Shown: one piece after another, positions 1,530-54,480 of the stretch
How positions within the stretch are numbered: position 1 is the first letter of the stretch
How the letters are laid out: the number at the start of each line of letters is the position of its first letter
Assembly: GCF_000011385.1 (NCBI RefSeq)
Contig: NC_005125.1
Span: forward strand, 3,844,001-3,908,000
Direction: 5' to 3'
Length of the DNA: 64,000 nucleotides
Source of the DNA: Gloeobacter violaceus PCC 7421
GTDB lineage: Bacteria; Cyanobacteriota; Cyanobacteriia; Gloeobacterales; Gloeobacteraceae
Position numbers and translations under genes: made by a program
Notes under the pieces: model-generated
The model's database searches: none
Told to the model about the DNA's origin: nothing
Seen by the model: the letters and a program-made list of their open reading frames with translations, nothing else

Positions 1530-4226
1530 CTACGCCGCTTCTTCGGATTCGGCGGCGAGGGCTTCTTCCTCCGCCAGTCGGGCCGCCTCTTCTTCGGCTG
1601 CGATGCGCGCTTCTTCTTCGGCTTGAAGCCTCGCTTCTTCCTCCGCCTGCAACCTGGCTTCTTCTGCTGCTGCTTGCTGGGCTTCGAGTTCCGCCTGCTG
1701 TTGCGCTTCTTGTTCTTCGGCCTGCTGCTCCAGCAGTTGTGCCTCAGGATCGCTCTGCAAGGTTTCTTCGCCAGTTTGCCCAGGCTGTGGCTCCAACCAG
1801 CCTGAAGGATCGTCTGTTACCGGTTCGAAACTGTCCTGCAGAGCCTCCAGGTCCTCGCTGAAGCCAAAATCCTGGACAGGCGCTTCGAGCAGATCCGCCG
1901 ACGCTTCGGCTTCAGTATTTTCGAGCGTTTCGGTGGGTAGGGTGAAACTGTCGTCGAAGAAATACTCCGGGCTCTGGCCTTCGGGATCTGCCGGCTGCTC
2001 GCCGTCGGGCAGTTGCGGATCTTGGAGGCCGTTTGCGTCCTCGACACTATCCTCCATCTGCTGCGCATCGGGTGGGGTGCCTTCGCGAAACTCCCCCTCC
2101 GCCTCCAACCGATTGCGGGCTTCATCCAACAGCGCCTCCGCCCGCTCTGCCTCGGTGATCACACCGCTTTCAACCAGTTCGCTCAGGTTGGTGTCGGGGT
2201 TGGCCAGTTGTTCCGGCGTCGGAGCAACTGGCACCGGCGGGGGAACTGGAACCGGGGTAGGAGCGGGTTGAGGTGCAGGAACCACCGGCTCCATCCGGTC
2301 CGTCGGCGCGGGAACAGGTGTGGGTTCAGGTTCGGTGAGCGGCTCGACCGACGGGAAGGGTTCGGGCTGCGGCTCGATCAAACCGGTTGGATCATCGGCC
2401 GGATCGTCGGTGGTTTGATCGCTCGTCGGATTGGTGGTTGAATCGCTTGCCGGATCGGTAGCTGGATCGCTGTCCGGGTCGTCGGTCGCAGTGCTTGGCG
2501 GCGGGTCCTCCACGGCCACAGGCTCCGGCGCGGGCACCGGTTCGACCGGCGGTGGATCGACCGGGGCAGGTGGCGGATCGGCGAAGGGGTTGATGCCGGA
2601 TAGAAAATTGCCGACAGTATCGATGGCCTGGGCACCAAAGTCGAGCAGGTTCTGGTTGTCCTGCTGGACATCCGCCGCCGCCGCCAGATAAGTATCGCCA
2701 TTGGTAAAGTCCTGCCAGGCGCCGCCGAGGCCCTCCTGCACCTGCTGCCAGGCGCCGCCCCAATCTCCCTGCTGTACTGCGTCGAGCGCTTCTGAGCCGT
2801 TGGTCCACAACTGCTGCCCTGCTGCGATGCTGTTGACCCCGAAGGCGGCGACGGTCTCATCGAGGCCGCCGGCGACGAAGTCCCCGGCGTCGCGCAGAAA
2901 CTCCATGCGGCCCATGAAGTTCTCGCCGGCGTGCTCCCCCGCCACCTTCAAGTCCTCCCACATCGTCGCTCCGGCGGTCTGCAGATCGCTGCCAACCTCC
3001 TGTAGCTGACCCAGGGCCGCCTGGCCGTCGTCCCAGCCCAGGCCGTCGCTCAGGTCCACGGCTCCCACCGCATCGACGACGCCCTCGACGACGGCACCGC
3101 CGCCCCCGACGACGACACCGTTCCAGAGCGCACCGATCGTCTCGTCTATCGCGTCGCCCACCAGCAGTTGACCGCCGGTGTAGATGGCGGCGGCGGTGCC
3201 CACCACCGGTGAGGCCGCCACCGCCGCCGCCCCCGCCCCGACGCGGCCCAGCACTCCCGACAGGGGCATGTTGGAAGCCACCTGACCGATCCTGGCGATG
3301 CCCGAAGTCGCCCAGGCGGGCATCGTGCCCGCCTGGATGAACTGGGCGCCGGCTTTGATGCCGCTGCCGATGCCGTCGGCGATGCGTAGGCCCGCTTCGA
3401 CGTCTTTGCCGTTCCACTGGCCGTCGGTCAGTTCGCTGATGCCCACGCCGATGTTGGCCAGACTGCCCACCCCGTAGCCGAGCCCTTCGACGTGGGCGGC
3501 ATTCTTGGCCACATCTCCGGTGCGGCCGAGGACGTTGGCGATCGTGTTGGCCAGGCCGGGGGCATTGTTCTTGGCGCCCTGGGCCGCTAATTTACCGACC
3601 CCCAGCGTGGTGTAAGCCGCCGAGGAGCCCGTGTAGGCCGCTCCCCGGACATAGTTGCCTTCAGAGAAAGCGTCGTGGGCCCGAAAGCCGTCGCCCAGCC
3701 CCATAAAAAGCGAGCCGCCGCCGGTGCCGGTGATCGATTTGACCTCGTCGGAAGGTTTGGCGGTCCAGGGGTTCATGTTGAGCGCCGGGTTGCGCAGGTC
3801 GGTCCCCCGATAGCCCAGGGTATTCATCACCCGGCCGCTCGAATTGAGCAGATGGCCGGCGGCCTCGTCCCCGTCTCCGGCTTTGCGGGCGTCCAGGTAG
3901 TTGCCAAAGGACAGACCGACGCTCGTCAGGTTCAAGTTGGCGCTCGCCCGGTTGATAACTTCCTGTTTCTCCTGCTTGAGGGTCGCCTCACGCTCCCTGT
4001 CGCCCTGCAGCTTTGCGTCGACTTCTTCGTACTTGTTGCGGCCGTCGAACACCCGGGCCGGTCCCCCCAGCCCGCGCCGACCGAACACCGCGGTTTCTTC
4101 CCCCTGTTGACCGAGGGGGAAGCGGTCCCGCATACCCAAACCCATGTCGGGATGCTGTTTATCGTCCGGTTGCGGCGGGGTGCCGCCAGTACCGTCACCA
4201 CCTTGATCTTGGGAATTACTGGACAT
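1530..4226 (-). CDS. Large protein of unknown function with Gly/Ala-rich core, Pro/Asp repeats and charged coiled-coil tail
   Basis: 898 residues, not recognised. The ATG at 4226 is supported by GAGGTGG four to six bases upstream; a longer upstream reading lacks such support. The N-terminal 60 residues are polar (Ser, Gln, Gly, Asp). Residues about 130-420 hold glycine- and alanine-rich stretches with small-residue zippers that could insert in or lie on membranes. Residues about 570-720 are rich in Pro, Asp and Thr with DPASD/DPTSD-like repeats. The last 60 residues are a Glu/Ala/Gln heptad-like coiled coil (EEARLQAEEEARL). No signal peptide or catalytic motif is visible. The layout (hydrophobic small-residue core plus disordered spacer) resembles secreted effectors or surface proteins, but that is inference. 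Confidence 0.75.
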   Translation of the reverse strand: MSSNSQDQGGDGTGGTPPQPDDKQHPDMGLGMRDRFPLGQQGEETAVFGRRGLGGPARVFDGRNKYEEVDAKLQGDREREATLKQEKQEVINRASANLNLTSVGLSFGNYLDARKAGDGDEAAGHLLNSSGRVMNTLGYRGTDLRNPALNMNPWTAKPSDEVKSITGTGGGSLFMGLGDGFRAHDAFSEGNYVRGAAYTGSSAAYTTLGVGKLAAQGAKNNAPGLANTIANVLGRTGDVAKNAAHVEGLGYGVGSLANIGVGISELTDGQWNGKDVEAGLRIADGIGSGIKAGAQFIQAGTMPAWATSGIARIGQVASNMPLSGVLGRVGAGAAAVAASPVVGTAAAIYTGGQLLVGDAIDETIGALWNGVVVGGGGAVVEGVVDAVGAVDLSDGLGWDDGQAALGQLQEVGSDLQTAGATMWEDLKVAGEHAGENFMGRMEFLRDAGDFVAGGLDETVAAFGVNSIAAGQQLWTNGSEALDAVQQGDWGGAWQQVQEGLGGAWQDFTNGDTYLAAAADVQQDNQNLLDFGAQAIDTVGNFLSGINPFADPPPAPVDPPPVEPVPAPEPVAVEDPPPSTATDDPDSDPATDPASDSTTNPTSDQTTDDPADDPTGLIEPQPEPFPSVEPLTEPEPTPVPAPTDRMEPVVPAPQPAPTPVPVPPPVPVAPTPEQLANPDTNLSELVESGVITEAERAEALLDEARNRLEAEGEFREGTPPDAQQMEDSVEDANGLQDPQLPDGEQPADPEGQSPEYFFDDSFTLPTETLENTEAEASADLLEAPVQDFGFSEDLEALQDSFEPVTDDPSGWLEPQPGQTGEETLQSDPEAQLLEQQAEEQEAQQQAELEAQQAAAEEARLQAEEEARLQAEEEARIAAEEEAARLAEEEALAAESEEAA

Positions 4227-51781: not shown

Positions 51782-52783
51782 TCAGGGTGTTTCCGGGCGA
51801 TTGATCACGTTGGGTGAAGCAGGGGCGCGCTCGGCGGCGCATCTGCGGGTGCGCACAAAATCACCCGCGTCTTCGAGTTGAAAACTGGTGATGGTGCGGT
51901 CGCCACCGCCGTACTCGTTGACGAGATTGCCGTCAATGATTGTTTGTACGTTCCTGGTACCGACGCCCAGCCCTTTCTGGGGGCTGGTGACGATGGTGAG
52001 CGACTGGTCGGGGTAGAGGACGTTGGTGTTGTTCTCAGAAAGCCCCAGTCCCATCTGACGGCCCAACTGGAACATCGTCTGCTGGGTAATCTGCTCGGGG
52101 TGCCACCAACGAAAGCCCTGTGTCACCCAGGCGCCGACATCGCGCTTGAAGGGCATGCGCACCACGACCCGGCCGCTGCGCTCGTCGATGAAGTAGCTGC
52201 TGTAGTCGGGATAATCTTCAAACGCTTCGACGACGACATCGGCCTGTTCGGGGGAGGGCACCACCACCAGCGGCTCCGGCAATTTGCCCTCGGCGTAGCC
52301 CACCACCATCGCGTTCCACTTGATGAGGCCTTGTTCGAGACCTTTGAACAACACCTCAGGAATCGTTTCCTGGGTATCTTTGAGCGCGACGGGCAGAGCG
52401 ACCCGCAGCGGAAAGCACCCCGGCACCCGGCCGCTGGAGCGGATCTGCAGCGTAAATTCCACCGGGCCGCGGGAGGCTGTGTCCACCACCGCCCGGCGGA
52501 TCGCCTCCTCCAGGCTGCGGCGGGTCAGCTCGGCCGCTTCTCCGCCTTCGATGGCGAGGGGACCGCCCAGGGTGAGTTGGGGATCGATCAGGTGTCCGTC
52601 GGACAGCAACTTCGCTTTGACGGTGACGGTGCCGTCGGTCTTGAGCCGCGGAAGTTTCCACTGGGCCTGAACCGCTTCGCGGGCAAGCCGGCCGGTGGGC
52701 AACTCCGCAGCGGTGCCCACCGACGCCGAATAGACCATCAAACCGCTGAACAGCAACAACGAACGCACGAAAGACATCATCAT
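51782..52783 (-). CDS. Matrixin-like secreted protein with lost catalytic residues and TonB-like N-terminal domain
   Basis: 333 residues with a signal peptide (FVRSLLLFSGLMVYSASVGTAAE). The first part (VTVKAKLLSDGHLIDPQLTLGG...EGGEAAELTRRSLEEAIRRAV) looks like a TonB/TolA C-terminal domain. The second part resembles a matrixin metalloprotease, with a DVVVEAFEDYPDYSSYFIDERSGRVVVRMPF block. Where active relatives have HExxHxxGxxH followed by MYP, this one has MFQLGRQMGLGLSENNTNVLYP: all zinc ligands and the catalytic Glu are replaced. So it is predicted to be inactive as a protease. ATG at 52783 is one of three consecutive ATGs behind GGAAGTGG. Confidence 0.7.
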   Translation of the reverse strand: MMMSFVRSLLLFSGLMVYSASVGTAAELPTGRLAREAVQAQWKLPRLKTDGTVTVKAKLLSDGHLIDPQLTLGGPLAIEGGEAAELTRRSLEEAIRRAVVDTASRGPVEFTLQIRSSGRVPGCFPLRVALPVALKDTQETIPEVLFKGLEQGLIKWNAMVVGYAEGKLPEPLVVVPSPEQADVVVEAFEDYPDYSSYFIDERSGRVVVRMPFKRDVGAWVTQGFRWWHPEQITQQTMFQLGRQMGLGLSENNTNVLYPDQSLTIVTSPQKGLGVGTRNVQTIIDGNLVNEYGGGDRTITSFQLEDAGDFVRTRRCAAERAPASPNVINRPETP

Positions 52784-52970
52784 GGCTGCCACTTCCAACC
52801 AACGCATGGGCCTGTCTACAGGTAGTACGATAACGCCAAATGTATGCAAGCTTCAGCCGGTACCCGCTGTACAGACTCCATCGGATGGGATCCAGTTCCA
52901 GTCTACAAGTGCGCAGGCGCGGGCCTTGGAGGCCGTCAGGGGCCGGGACGCGGCCTGGCAAGTTCGCAAT

Positions 52971-54419
52971 TCAAAAATGGACAAACACTTCGGGAACAAA
53001 GGTGCCGTGCAGGCTGTAGGGGACGTGGTGCTTGAGGCCGAGGCGGGTCAGGCAGGTGAGATCCCGGCCGTCCAGGATCCACAGATCGCTCCTGTCGCGC
53101 CGGGCATCGTAGACCATCGCCAATAGCCAGCCGTCGTCTTCGGCAGTACCGTCCGGGCGGGGCACGAAGATCGGTTCGCTGACGAACCCGGACGGGGCAA
53201 AGCTGTGAAATTCCGCCCGACCCGTTTCGACATCGAGTTTGGCGATGGCCTGCAAAGGGGCGTTGCCGCCCTCCGCGTGGACAGCGGCGGCAAAGGCGAA
53301 GCGGTAGGGACGCCCGACGCGATCGGGATGCACCTGGGGAAATTCGGCCGAGCGCCTGAGTAGGGGTCGGGCTTCCACACGACCTTTGACCGGGTCGATC
53401 TGCGTGCGCCAGATCCAGCCTTCCGGCAACCGGCTGAAGTCGGTCTGGCGAAAATCGCGGTCCTCCTGGGTGGTGATGTATTCTTCGTAGCGGATGCTGT
53501 CGACGACGATCCGGCCCTCCCGTTCGAAGGCGTTGACGTGGTGAAAGACAAAGAATGGTTCGGTGGCAATCGTCTGCACCGGCCCGCCGTTTCTTGGAAT
53601 GAGCAGTATTCGCGTCGGTTCGCCGGGGGCGAGGCGCAGACATTCCCCGGCCGCCTTGAAACCCAGCACAAACGGCAGCGGATCGAGGGCCATCGGGTTC
53701 TGGAAGAAGACCCAGTAGTTCTCGGTTAGGGCAAAATCGTGCACGAAGGCAAAACCCGGCACGGTGTGCTCGCTCTCGACGCGCACGCCGCCGTCGGGGG
53801 AGAGGCGGTAGATATACAGAACCGTCTGCAGGCCGGTGCGCACCCCAAAGGAAATCAAATCGCCGGTCGCAGGATCGAGGCGGGGGTGGGCGGCGAAGGG
53901 TTTGCCGCCGCAGAGGGCCCCGGCGAGATCGTCCAGGCCAAACGTTTCGAGGCTCGCCGGGTCGAGGCGGTGGGGAGGAGCGGCCTCCCAAAGCGCCAGA
54001 AGCCGGCCGCCGTGGTAGACGACGCCGGTATTGGCGACGTTCTTGAAGCCGAAGTCGAAGGCGTTTGCCCAGAATCCGCCGGGCCTGAGGGTGCCGAAAA
54101 CGTTTTTGCTTAGAATCCGCCCGGCCGCCGATTCTTGGATAAAGCCCTCGGTGCGCACGAAGCGGTTCTGGAAGTGAGCCCGGCCGCCCGCGAAGCGGAC
54201 CGCCGAGATCATGCCGTCGCCGTCAAACGGGTGCTTGTAGGACACCCCGCCGCGCTCGAAGCGGCCCGGGCCGTTGCGAAAGAGAGTGCCCGTAAGCTCG
54301 GCCGGAATTGTGCCTTCGATAGCGTCGATGACATAGGCCTGCTCGGCTTCAAGGGTGCGGTACCCTCCGGCCCAATCGGCCGACGCATACGGGCTTCGCG
54401 AATCCTGGGCGGCGGTCAT
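52971..54419 (-). CDS. Carotenoid oxygenase (apocarotenoid-15,15'-oxygenase family)
   Basis: 482 residues, close to the usual 480-500. Cleaves carotenoids or apocarotenoids with a non-haem iron held by four His. GTLFRNGPGRFERGG near 40 and HPFDGDGMISAV near 60 are family signatures. Likely ligands are His in AAHPRLDPATGDL near 180, FVHDFALTENYW near 235, FHHVNAFE near 300 and the C-terminal LHGTFVPEVF. Makes retinal or a related apocarotenal. ATG at 54419 has GGAGG nine bases upstream. No signal peptide; in cyanobacteria it would act at the membrane surface. Confidence 0.88.
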   Translation of the reverse strand: MTAAQDSRSPYASADWAGGYRTLEAEQAYVIDAIEGTIPAELTGTLFRNGPGRFERGGVSYKHPFDGDGMISAVRFAGGRAHFQNRFVRTEGFIQESAAGRILSKNVFGTLRPGGFWANAFDFGFKNVANTGVVYHGGRLLALWEAAPPHRLDPASLETFGLDDLAGALCGGKPFAAHPRLDPATGDLISFGVRTGLQTVLYIYRLSPDGGVRVESEHTVPGFAFVHDFALTENYWVFFQNPMALDPLPFVLGFKAAGECLRLAPGEPTRILLIPRNGGPVQTIATEPFFVFHHVNAFEREGRIVVDSIRYEEYITTQEDRDFRQTDFSRLPEGWIWRTQIDPVKGRVEARPLLRRSAEFPQVHPDRVGRPYRFAFAAAVHAEGGNAPLQAIAKLDVETGRAEFHSFAPSGFVSEPIFVPRPDGTAEDDGWLLAMVYDARRDRSDLWILDGRDLTCLTRLGLKHHVPYSLHGTFVPEVFVHF

Positions 54420-54480
54420 GGCGGCTCGCCTCCGGCAAACAGTTCGTTTCAAATGTTAACAAACCCTCGGCCTTGTGCGC

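Follow-up and report, generated by a model that had tools for sequence, protein, structure and literature searches.

The window, by which we mean the whole stretch of 64,000 nucleotides of Gloeobacter violaceus PCC 7421 that was analysed (the genome, here G000, has 4,659,019 bases in one contig), encodes a protein in which a TonB_2-like domain is joined to a matrixin-related domain stripped of its zinc-binding site. The homology of this second domain, the pseudo-matrixin domain, to matrixins is established by profile comparison, and the pseudo-matrixin genes are under purifying selection despite the lost catalytic residues. Since the zinc ligands are lost across the family and the genes are nevertheless kept under selection, the protein most likely binds rather than cuts, and it probably serves as a non-catalytic binding or adaptor protein in the periplasm. 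The table gives the features of the gene together with two further dead relatives; an in-frame TTG upstream of the ATG would lengthen the open reading frame to 52849. Two other genomes of its genus hold orthologues of the window protein, with identities of 94% and 91%.

Table 1. Features of the TonB_2-pseudo-matrixin gene, its upstream neighbour and two further dead matrixin relatives
Feature	Position	Strand	Basis or remark
TonB_2-pseudo-matrixin CDS	51782..52783	-	ORF list; ATG start, 333 aa; stop 51782-51784
Signal-peptide-like N-terminus, residues 1-26	52706..52783	-	By eye: basic residue, hydrophobic stretch, ...GTAA
TonB_2 (TonB C-terminal)-like domain, ~residues 32-118	52430..52690	-	PF13103 in family members; subfamily B alignment
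Pseudo-matrixin domain, ~residues 121-315 (~195 residues)	51839..52423	-	hhalign to active matrixins
FQLGRQMGLGL, replacing HExxHxxGxxH, residues 238-248	52040..52072	-	Direct reading and alignment
Arg242, at the position of the second zinc-binding His	52058..52060	-	Alignment of subfamilies A and B
NVLYP, at the Met-turn (x-V-M-Y-P) position	52010..52024	-	Direct reading and alignment
Cys123, opening the pseudo-matrixin domain	52415..52417	-	Kept 21/21
Cys315, close to the C-terminus; probably disulfide-bonded to Cys123	51839..51841	-	Kept 21/21
RPE65-type carotenoid oxygenase gene, directly upstream, same strand	52971..54452	-	PF03055, E 1e-144
Group C dead matrixin	L107:2777-3580 = G000:C1:2609315-2609914	-	Orthologues in L108, L109
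Zinc-less NQLGRVMGL protein, 490 aa	L110:592-2061 = G007:C1:50305-50928		C-terminal TonB_2 domains

A search of 59 genomes for relatives gave 16 loci in 5 genomes, referred to here as subfamily A, and the profile of their C-terminal domain was compared with 18 active cyanobacterial matrixin domains. These came from a PF00413 search and from the stretches around matches of the subfamily A profile. The two match at 98.8% over 124 columns in hhalign, with an E-value of 8.4e-17 that refers to one single comparison. FQLGRQMGL is placed on HELGHALGL of the active enzymes and NVLYP on DVMYP, and the strand, helix and Met-turn segments of matrixins all align with the pseudo-matrixin domain, with the proviso that alignments of such distantly related domains are uncertain. 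Control comparisons with the active matrixins gave 0.4% for the reversed family profile, 0.7% for the profile of the N-terminal domain and a maximum of 2.3% for 100 column-shuffled profiles, and the match stayed at 98.0% when four active sequences belonging to the closest group were removed. Among 388 genomes that sample the class, with at most five candidates scored per genome, the subfamily A profile matches active matrixins upstream of the zinc motif, with a best E-value of 7.0e-9 in G008.

That the likeness to matrixins arose by chance, the domain having another fold, is exceedingly improbable given this match and its controls, the more so as each half of the domain matches separately (98.1% for the segment before the motif, 91.0% for the motif segment), even though the window protein alone finds no metzincin in Pfam, NCBIfam or PDB sequence searches. 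It has no match to PF00413 (Peptidase_M10), which matches one of the 16 subfamily A members at E 0.2, and the subfamily A profile finds no metzincin in the PDB. Because both AlphaFold models were of low confidence, with a mean pLDDT of 34.3 for the window protein and its relative L017 and of 37.8 for the C-terminal domain alone, we can only infer that the metzincin fold has been kept. Fold retention had been part of a preliminary description of this gene, whose reading of a matrixin homologue that lacks an active site and carries a TonB-like part otherwise stands. Weak matches to YicC (Pfam) and in NCBIfam, far below the cut-offs where these are shown, were discarded. A search of viral contigs gave no relative, and one of genome contigs with the window protein alone gave a single locus of 91% identity, apparently on the contig G001:C5.

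Active matrixins keep their zinc ligands, the catalytic Glu and the Met of the Met-turn, whereas the window protein has lost all of these. The replacement of every zinc-binding residue, already noted in the preliminary description, can be read directly in FQLGRQMGLGL and agrees with the profile match, the conservation across the family and the tree. The phylogenetic comparison that it proposed shows the loss to be common to relatives: the zinc ligands are gone in 16/16 members of subfamily A, and also in 5/5 members of a second set, subfamily B, which aligns with subfamily A over its full length (99.5%, hhalign). The N-x-LYP that it placed after the motif is likewise present, and at this site the Met-turn Met has become Leu (Leu256) in all 16 proteins of subfamily A, while all five of subfamily B retain Met. 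Throughout subfamily A the first His is replaced by Phe, the second by Arg and the third is missing (16/16 in each case), the position of the catalytic Glu being occupied by Gln in 14 members, by His in one and by Glu in one. The five intact members of subfamily B have Gln for the first His, Leu for the Glu and Arg (4) or Lys (1) for the second His, and they too are without the third. The HExxHxxGxxH of Peptidase_M10 peptidases is thus found in none of these proteins, nor is the Met-turn Met found in subfamily A.

What has been conserved instead is a different set of residues. The position of Arg242 holds Arg in 20 and Lys in one of the 21 proteins of A and B, and once the NQLGR protein of G007 is added, a cationic residue stands there in 22/22 zinc-less proteins. 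Cys123, Pro125, Ala181, Gly241, Leu246, Gln302 and Cys315 are invariant (21/21), and Tyr197 is kept in 20/21. In each of the 21 proteins these two Cys are the only ones beyond the signal region, which points to a disulfide and to a location in the envelope. Arg242, Tyr197 and Gln302 could in principle build a new site, but it is very unlikely that the protein remains enzymatically active through a different metal site or a different chemistry: A and B share no invariant set of His, Asp or Glu fit for a metal, the subfamily A alignment has no invariant His, and the sole invariant Cys are two that lie distant in sequence.

Counted by the method of Nei-Gojobori, dN/dS in subfamily A ranges over 0.17-0.36 for eight pairs of close orthologues and reaches 0.45 in one distant pair; the window gene against its two close orthologues gives 0.19 and 0.30. 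In subfamily B the values are 0.06-0.28. Splitting by domain, for the window gene against two orthologues, gave 0.035 and 0.215 for the pseudo-matrixin domain and 0.85 and 0.53 for the N-terminal domain, values that are rough because the changes were few. With dN/dS well under 1 and open reading frames intact at 16/16 subfamily A loci, we consider it most improbable that the protein is the relic of a decaying protease, although the window's genome does contain a frameshifted copy of subfamily B and a truncated copy of 127 aa. The former (L078, ~base 3696; G000:C1 near 752695) is frameshifted by a single base when compared with its counterpart in G003 (95% identity), owing either to a sequencing error or to recent decay into a pseudogene. 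The latter (L087; G000:C1:1281664-1281831, minus strand) belongs to subfamily A, and its second half looks unrelated.

A tree of 45 matrixin domains (16 of subfamily A, five of subfamily B, nine active with TonB_2 and 15 other active ones) places the pseudo-matrixins nearest to active enzymes with TonB_2 domains. A branch with support 100/98 joins A, B and the nine active TonB_2-matrixins against the 15 others and is recovered, again at 100/98, from a tree without the motif columns; A and B group together at 91/79 and 92/83. Pfam finds TonB_2 in the open reading frames of all nine active members of the clade, so that the two domains of the window protein recur, in reversed order, in its nearest active relatives. 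The active TonB_2-matrixins of the order are found in L084, L085, L086, L095-L098, L101 and L102. Downstream of the zinc motif they conserve four Cys, and their C-terminus bears at least one and up to several TonB_2 domains; those of L084, L085 and L098, for example, stand in neighbouring groups of the tree and likewise combine matrixin and TonB_2, whereas the window protein carries its TonB_2-like domain at the N-terminus and has two Cys. Among the papers listed on matrixins and TonB, none appears to describe an active matrixin with a C-terminal TonB_2 domain.

A search of the 59 genomes with a profile of the active group yielded two further dead relatives that are missing from the matches listed for PF00413. 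Group C, which occurs in G000, G001 and G003, retains the three zinc His and has Ala for the catalytic Glu (HAxxH, in a motif HAVGHALGFAH or HAVGHVLGFAH-like), so that nature here repeats the classic inactive mutant; Pfam gives no TonB_2 match in it, and its dN/dS is 0.24-0.34. The NQLGR protein of G007 comes from another family of the order, and its Gln and Arg are placed as in the window protein. In a tree that includes both, for which the motif columns and four active rows were omitted and the program warned of long branches, group C is the neighbour of an active protein of G002 (97/92), the NQLGR protein falls among active ones (support 82-86, not starred), and a minimum of four switches between the active and the dead state is required. 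The AU test rejects a single origin for the dead proteins as a whole (p 0.0005), but not one shared by A, B and the protein of G007 (p 0.114). These trees indicate at least two losses of catalysis in the TonB_2-matrixin clade, all within one order.

The TonB C-terminal-like part seen in the preliminary description holds for the family. PF13103 (TonB_2) matches 7/16 subfamily A members at E<=1, with a best value of 6.5e-5, and its curated cut-off is passed by one subfamily A member and by all six subfamily B loci; the window protein alone gives no TonB_2 match in Pfam. In the TonB energy transducer, an inner-membrane anchor and a long periplasmic spacer precede the TonB C-terminal domain. Inspection by eye reveals neither a membrane anchor nor a proline-rich spacer in the window protein, the TonB_2-like domain following directly on the signal-peptide-like segment. 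This argues against the protein being a part of the TonB system, in which the TonB_2 domain would contact an outer-membrane receptor and the pseudo-matrixin would serve as a specificity or spacer domain, a reading that we find quite unlikely despite the TonB_2 domain of the family and a receptor gene that immediately precedes one set of paralogues.

The member of that set at 3561062-3562042 of G000 is immediately preceded by a gene for a TonB-dependent receptor and followed by one whose 740-aa product has a PQQ_2 match below threshold. The three stand on one strand (L089:2253-8299; G000:C1:3558252-3564298), and their order is conserved in G003; in the stretch examined of G001, the 740-aa gene is present and the receptor survives only as a 55-residue remnant, so the receptor is directly upstream in 2/3 genomes of this set. 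Most paralogues adjoin no receptor, the window gene among them, whose nearest one is ~7 kb off. The other family members have no adjacent receptor among the matches listed, except at G002 2107391, where a convergent receptor match begins ~1.5 kb further on. As the window's genome has 33-36 receptor matches, a single adjacent receptor could be chance. A general pairing of pseudo-matrixin genes with TonB-dependent receptors was rejected, since apart from this convergent case it is confined to a single paralogue set.

The best-known pseudo-metzincins are those of animals. In the pseudo-ADAMs of family M12 (ADAM11, ADAM22, ADAM23, ADAM2, ADAM18 and ADAM32) the zinc motif of the metzincin domain is replaced, and such dead domains persist in non-catalytic roles, according to the accessible part of PMC11266112; the replacement in ADAM11, given there as QTLGQNLGMMWN, is similar in style to that of the window protein. 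Comparison suggests that the window protein is most likely a pseudo-metzincin comparable to ADAM11, ADAM22 and ADAM23, and in this sense of a known kind. The pseudo-ADAMs differ in being animal membrane proteins with disintegrin domains and without a TonB-like domain, and the term TonB is absent from the accessible text of PMC11266112. In substituted zincins, which include the CLCA family and others, the His of HExxH change to Arg or Lys more often than expected, for reasons left unexplained, and the Glu changes most often to Gln (PMC3650047, in its accessible part). This is the pattern of the window protein, although the CLCA proteins are another zincin family with another architecture and the accessible text contains no word beginning with ‘cyanobacter’. 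Cyanobacteria do have conserved dead protease homologues, the pseudo-orthocaspases, some of them in genomes without an active counterpart, but these are a cysteine peptidase family reported absent from Gloeobacter (PMC6426788, in its accessible part). Among the papers listed on matrixins, metzincins, pseudoproteases, Gloeobacter and TonB, none appears to describe the TonB_2-pseudo-matrixin family.

The non-catalytic roles of dead ADAMs and the tendency towards Arg or Lys at the zinc His favour a non-catalytic binder or adaptor. Such a protein would be secreted, most likely into the periplasm; its pseudo-matrixin domain would keep the metzincin shape, held by one disulfide, and would bind a protein or peptide through the old substrate cleft, with Arg242 at the former metal site, or through its surface, while the TonB_2-like domain may attach it to an envelope partner such as a TonB-dependent receptor or the cell wall. 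Most of the doubt in this reading concerns the partner. A role as binding protein or inhibitor, raised in the preliminary description, is possible. As an inhibitor or decoy, the protein would compete through its dead cleft for the substrates of active matrixins of the same cell, or dimerise with them, and so damp them. The accessible part of PMC11266112 names the regulation of active cousins as one role of metallopeptidase pseudoenzymes, and the window's genome encodes active matrixins of other clades, such as a 372-aa protein from the PF00413 search. Even so, we regard inhibition as unlikely: the active-group profile search found no active clade member in G000, G001 and G003, which leaves no close active cousin for an inhibitor to regulate, and the paralogues persist there anyway. 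It is for this lack of an active same-clade member in the window's genome that we prefer the binder or adaptor over the inhibitor.

Beyond the binder or adaptor as such, we speculate, with little confidence, that the Arg or Lys might substitute for the zinc ion and hold a carboxylate, turning the dead cleft into a peptide pocket; the clade would then have exchanged cutting for binding on at least two occasions in one order, possibly to provide periplasmic partners of TonB-dependent receptors. In this clade, bacteria offer a mixture of active and dead small soluble metzincins with at least two separate losses and an Arg conserved where a metal ligand used to be. It makes testable the role of Arg/Lys-substituted zincins, a question raised in the accessible part of PMC3650047, as well as the purpose of TonB_2 domains outside TonB.

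The carotenoid oxygenase gene is separated from the pseudo-matrixin ATG by a gap of ~190 bases, and the two genes possibly belong to the same operon. Their pairing is present in 4/4 genus genomes examined, the own one included, and a 45%-identical orthologue in genome G002 is likewise paired with a carotenoid oxygenase gene. On its other side, the pseudo-matrixin gene meets two genes for M16 peptidases tail to tail, and this pair as well as the nearby truB are conserved in the two close genomes. A gene for a PsbO-like manganese-stabilising protein (PF01716; 55495-56340, plus strand) lies near the group of truB, oxygenase and pseudo-matrixin genes, and its order relative to this group is the same in two other genomes. 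An antisense open reading frame of 315 aa (51878-52825, plus strand) overlaps the pseudo-matrixin gene and is probably a by-product of the high GC content.
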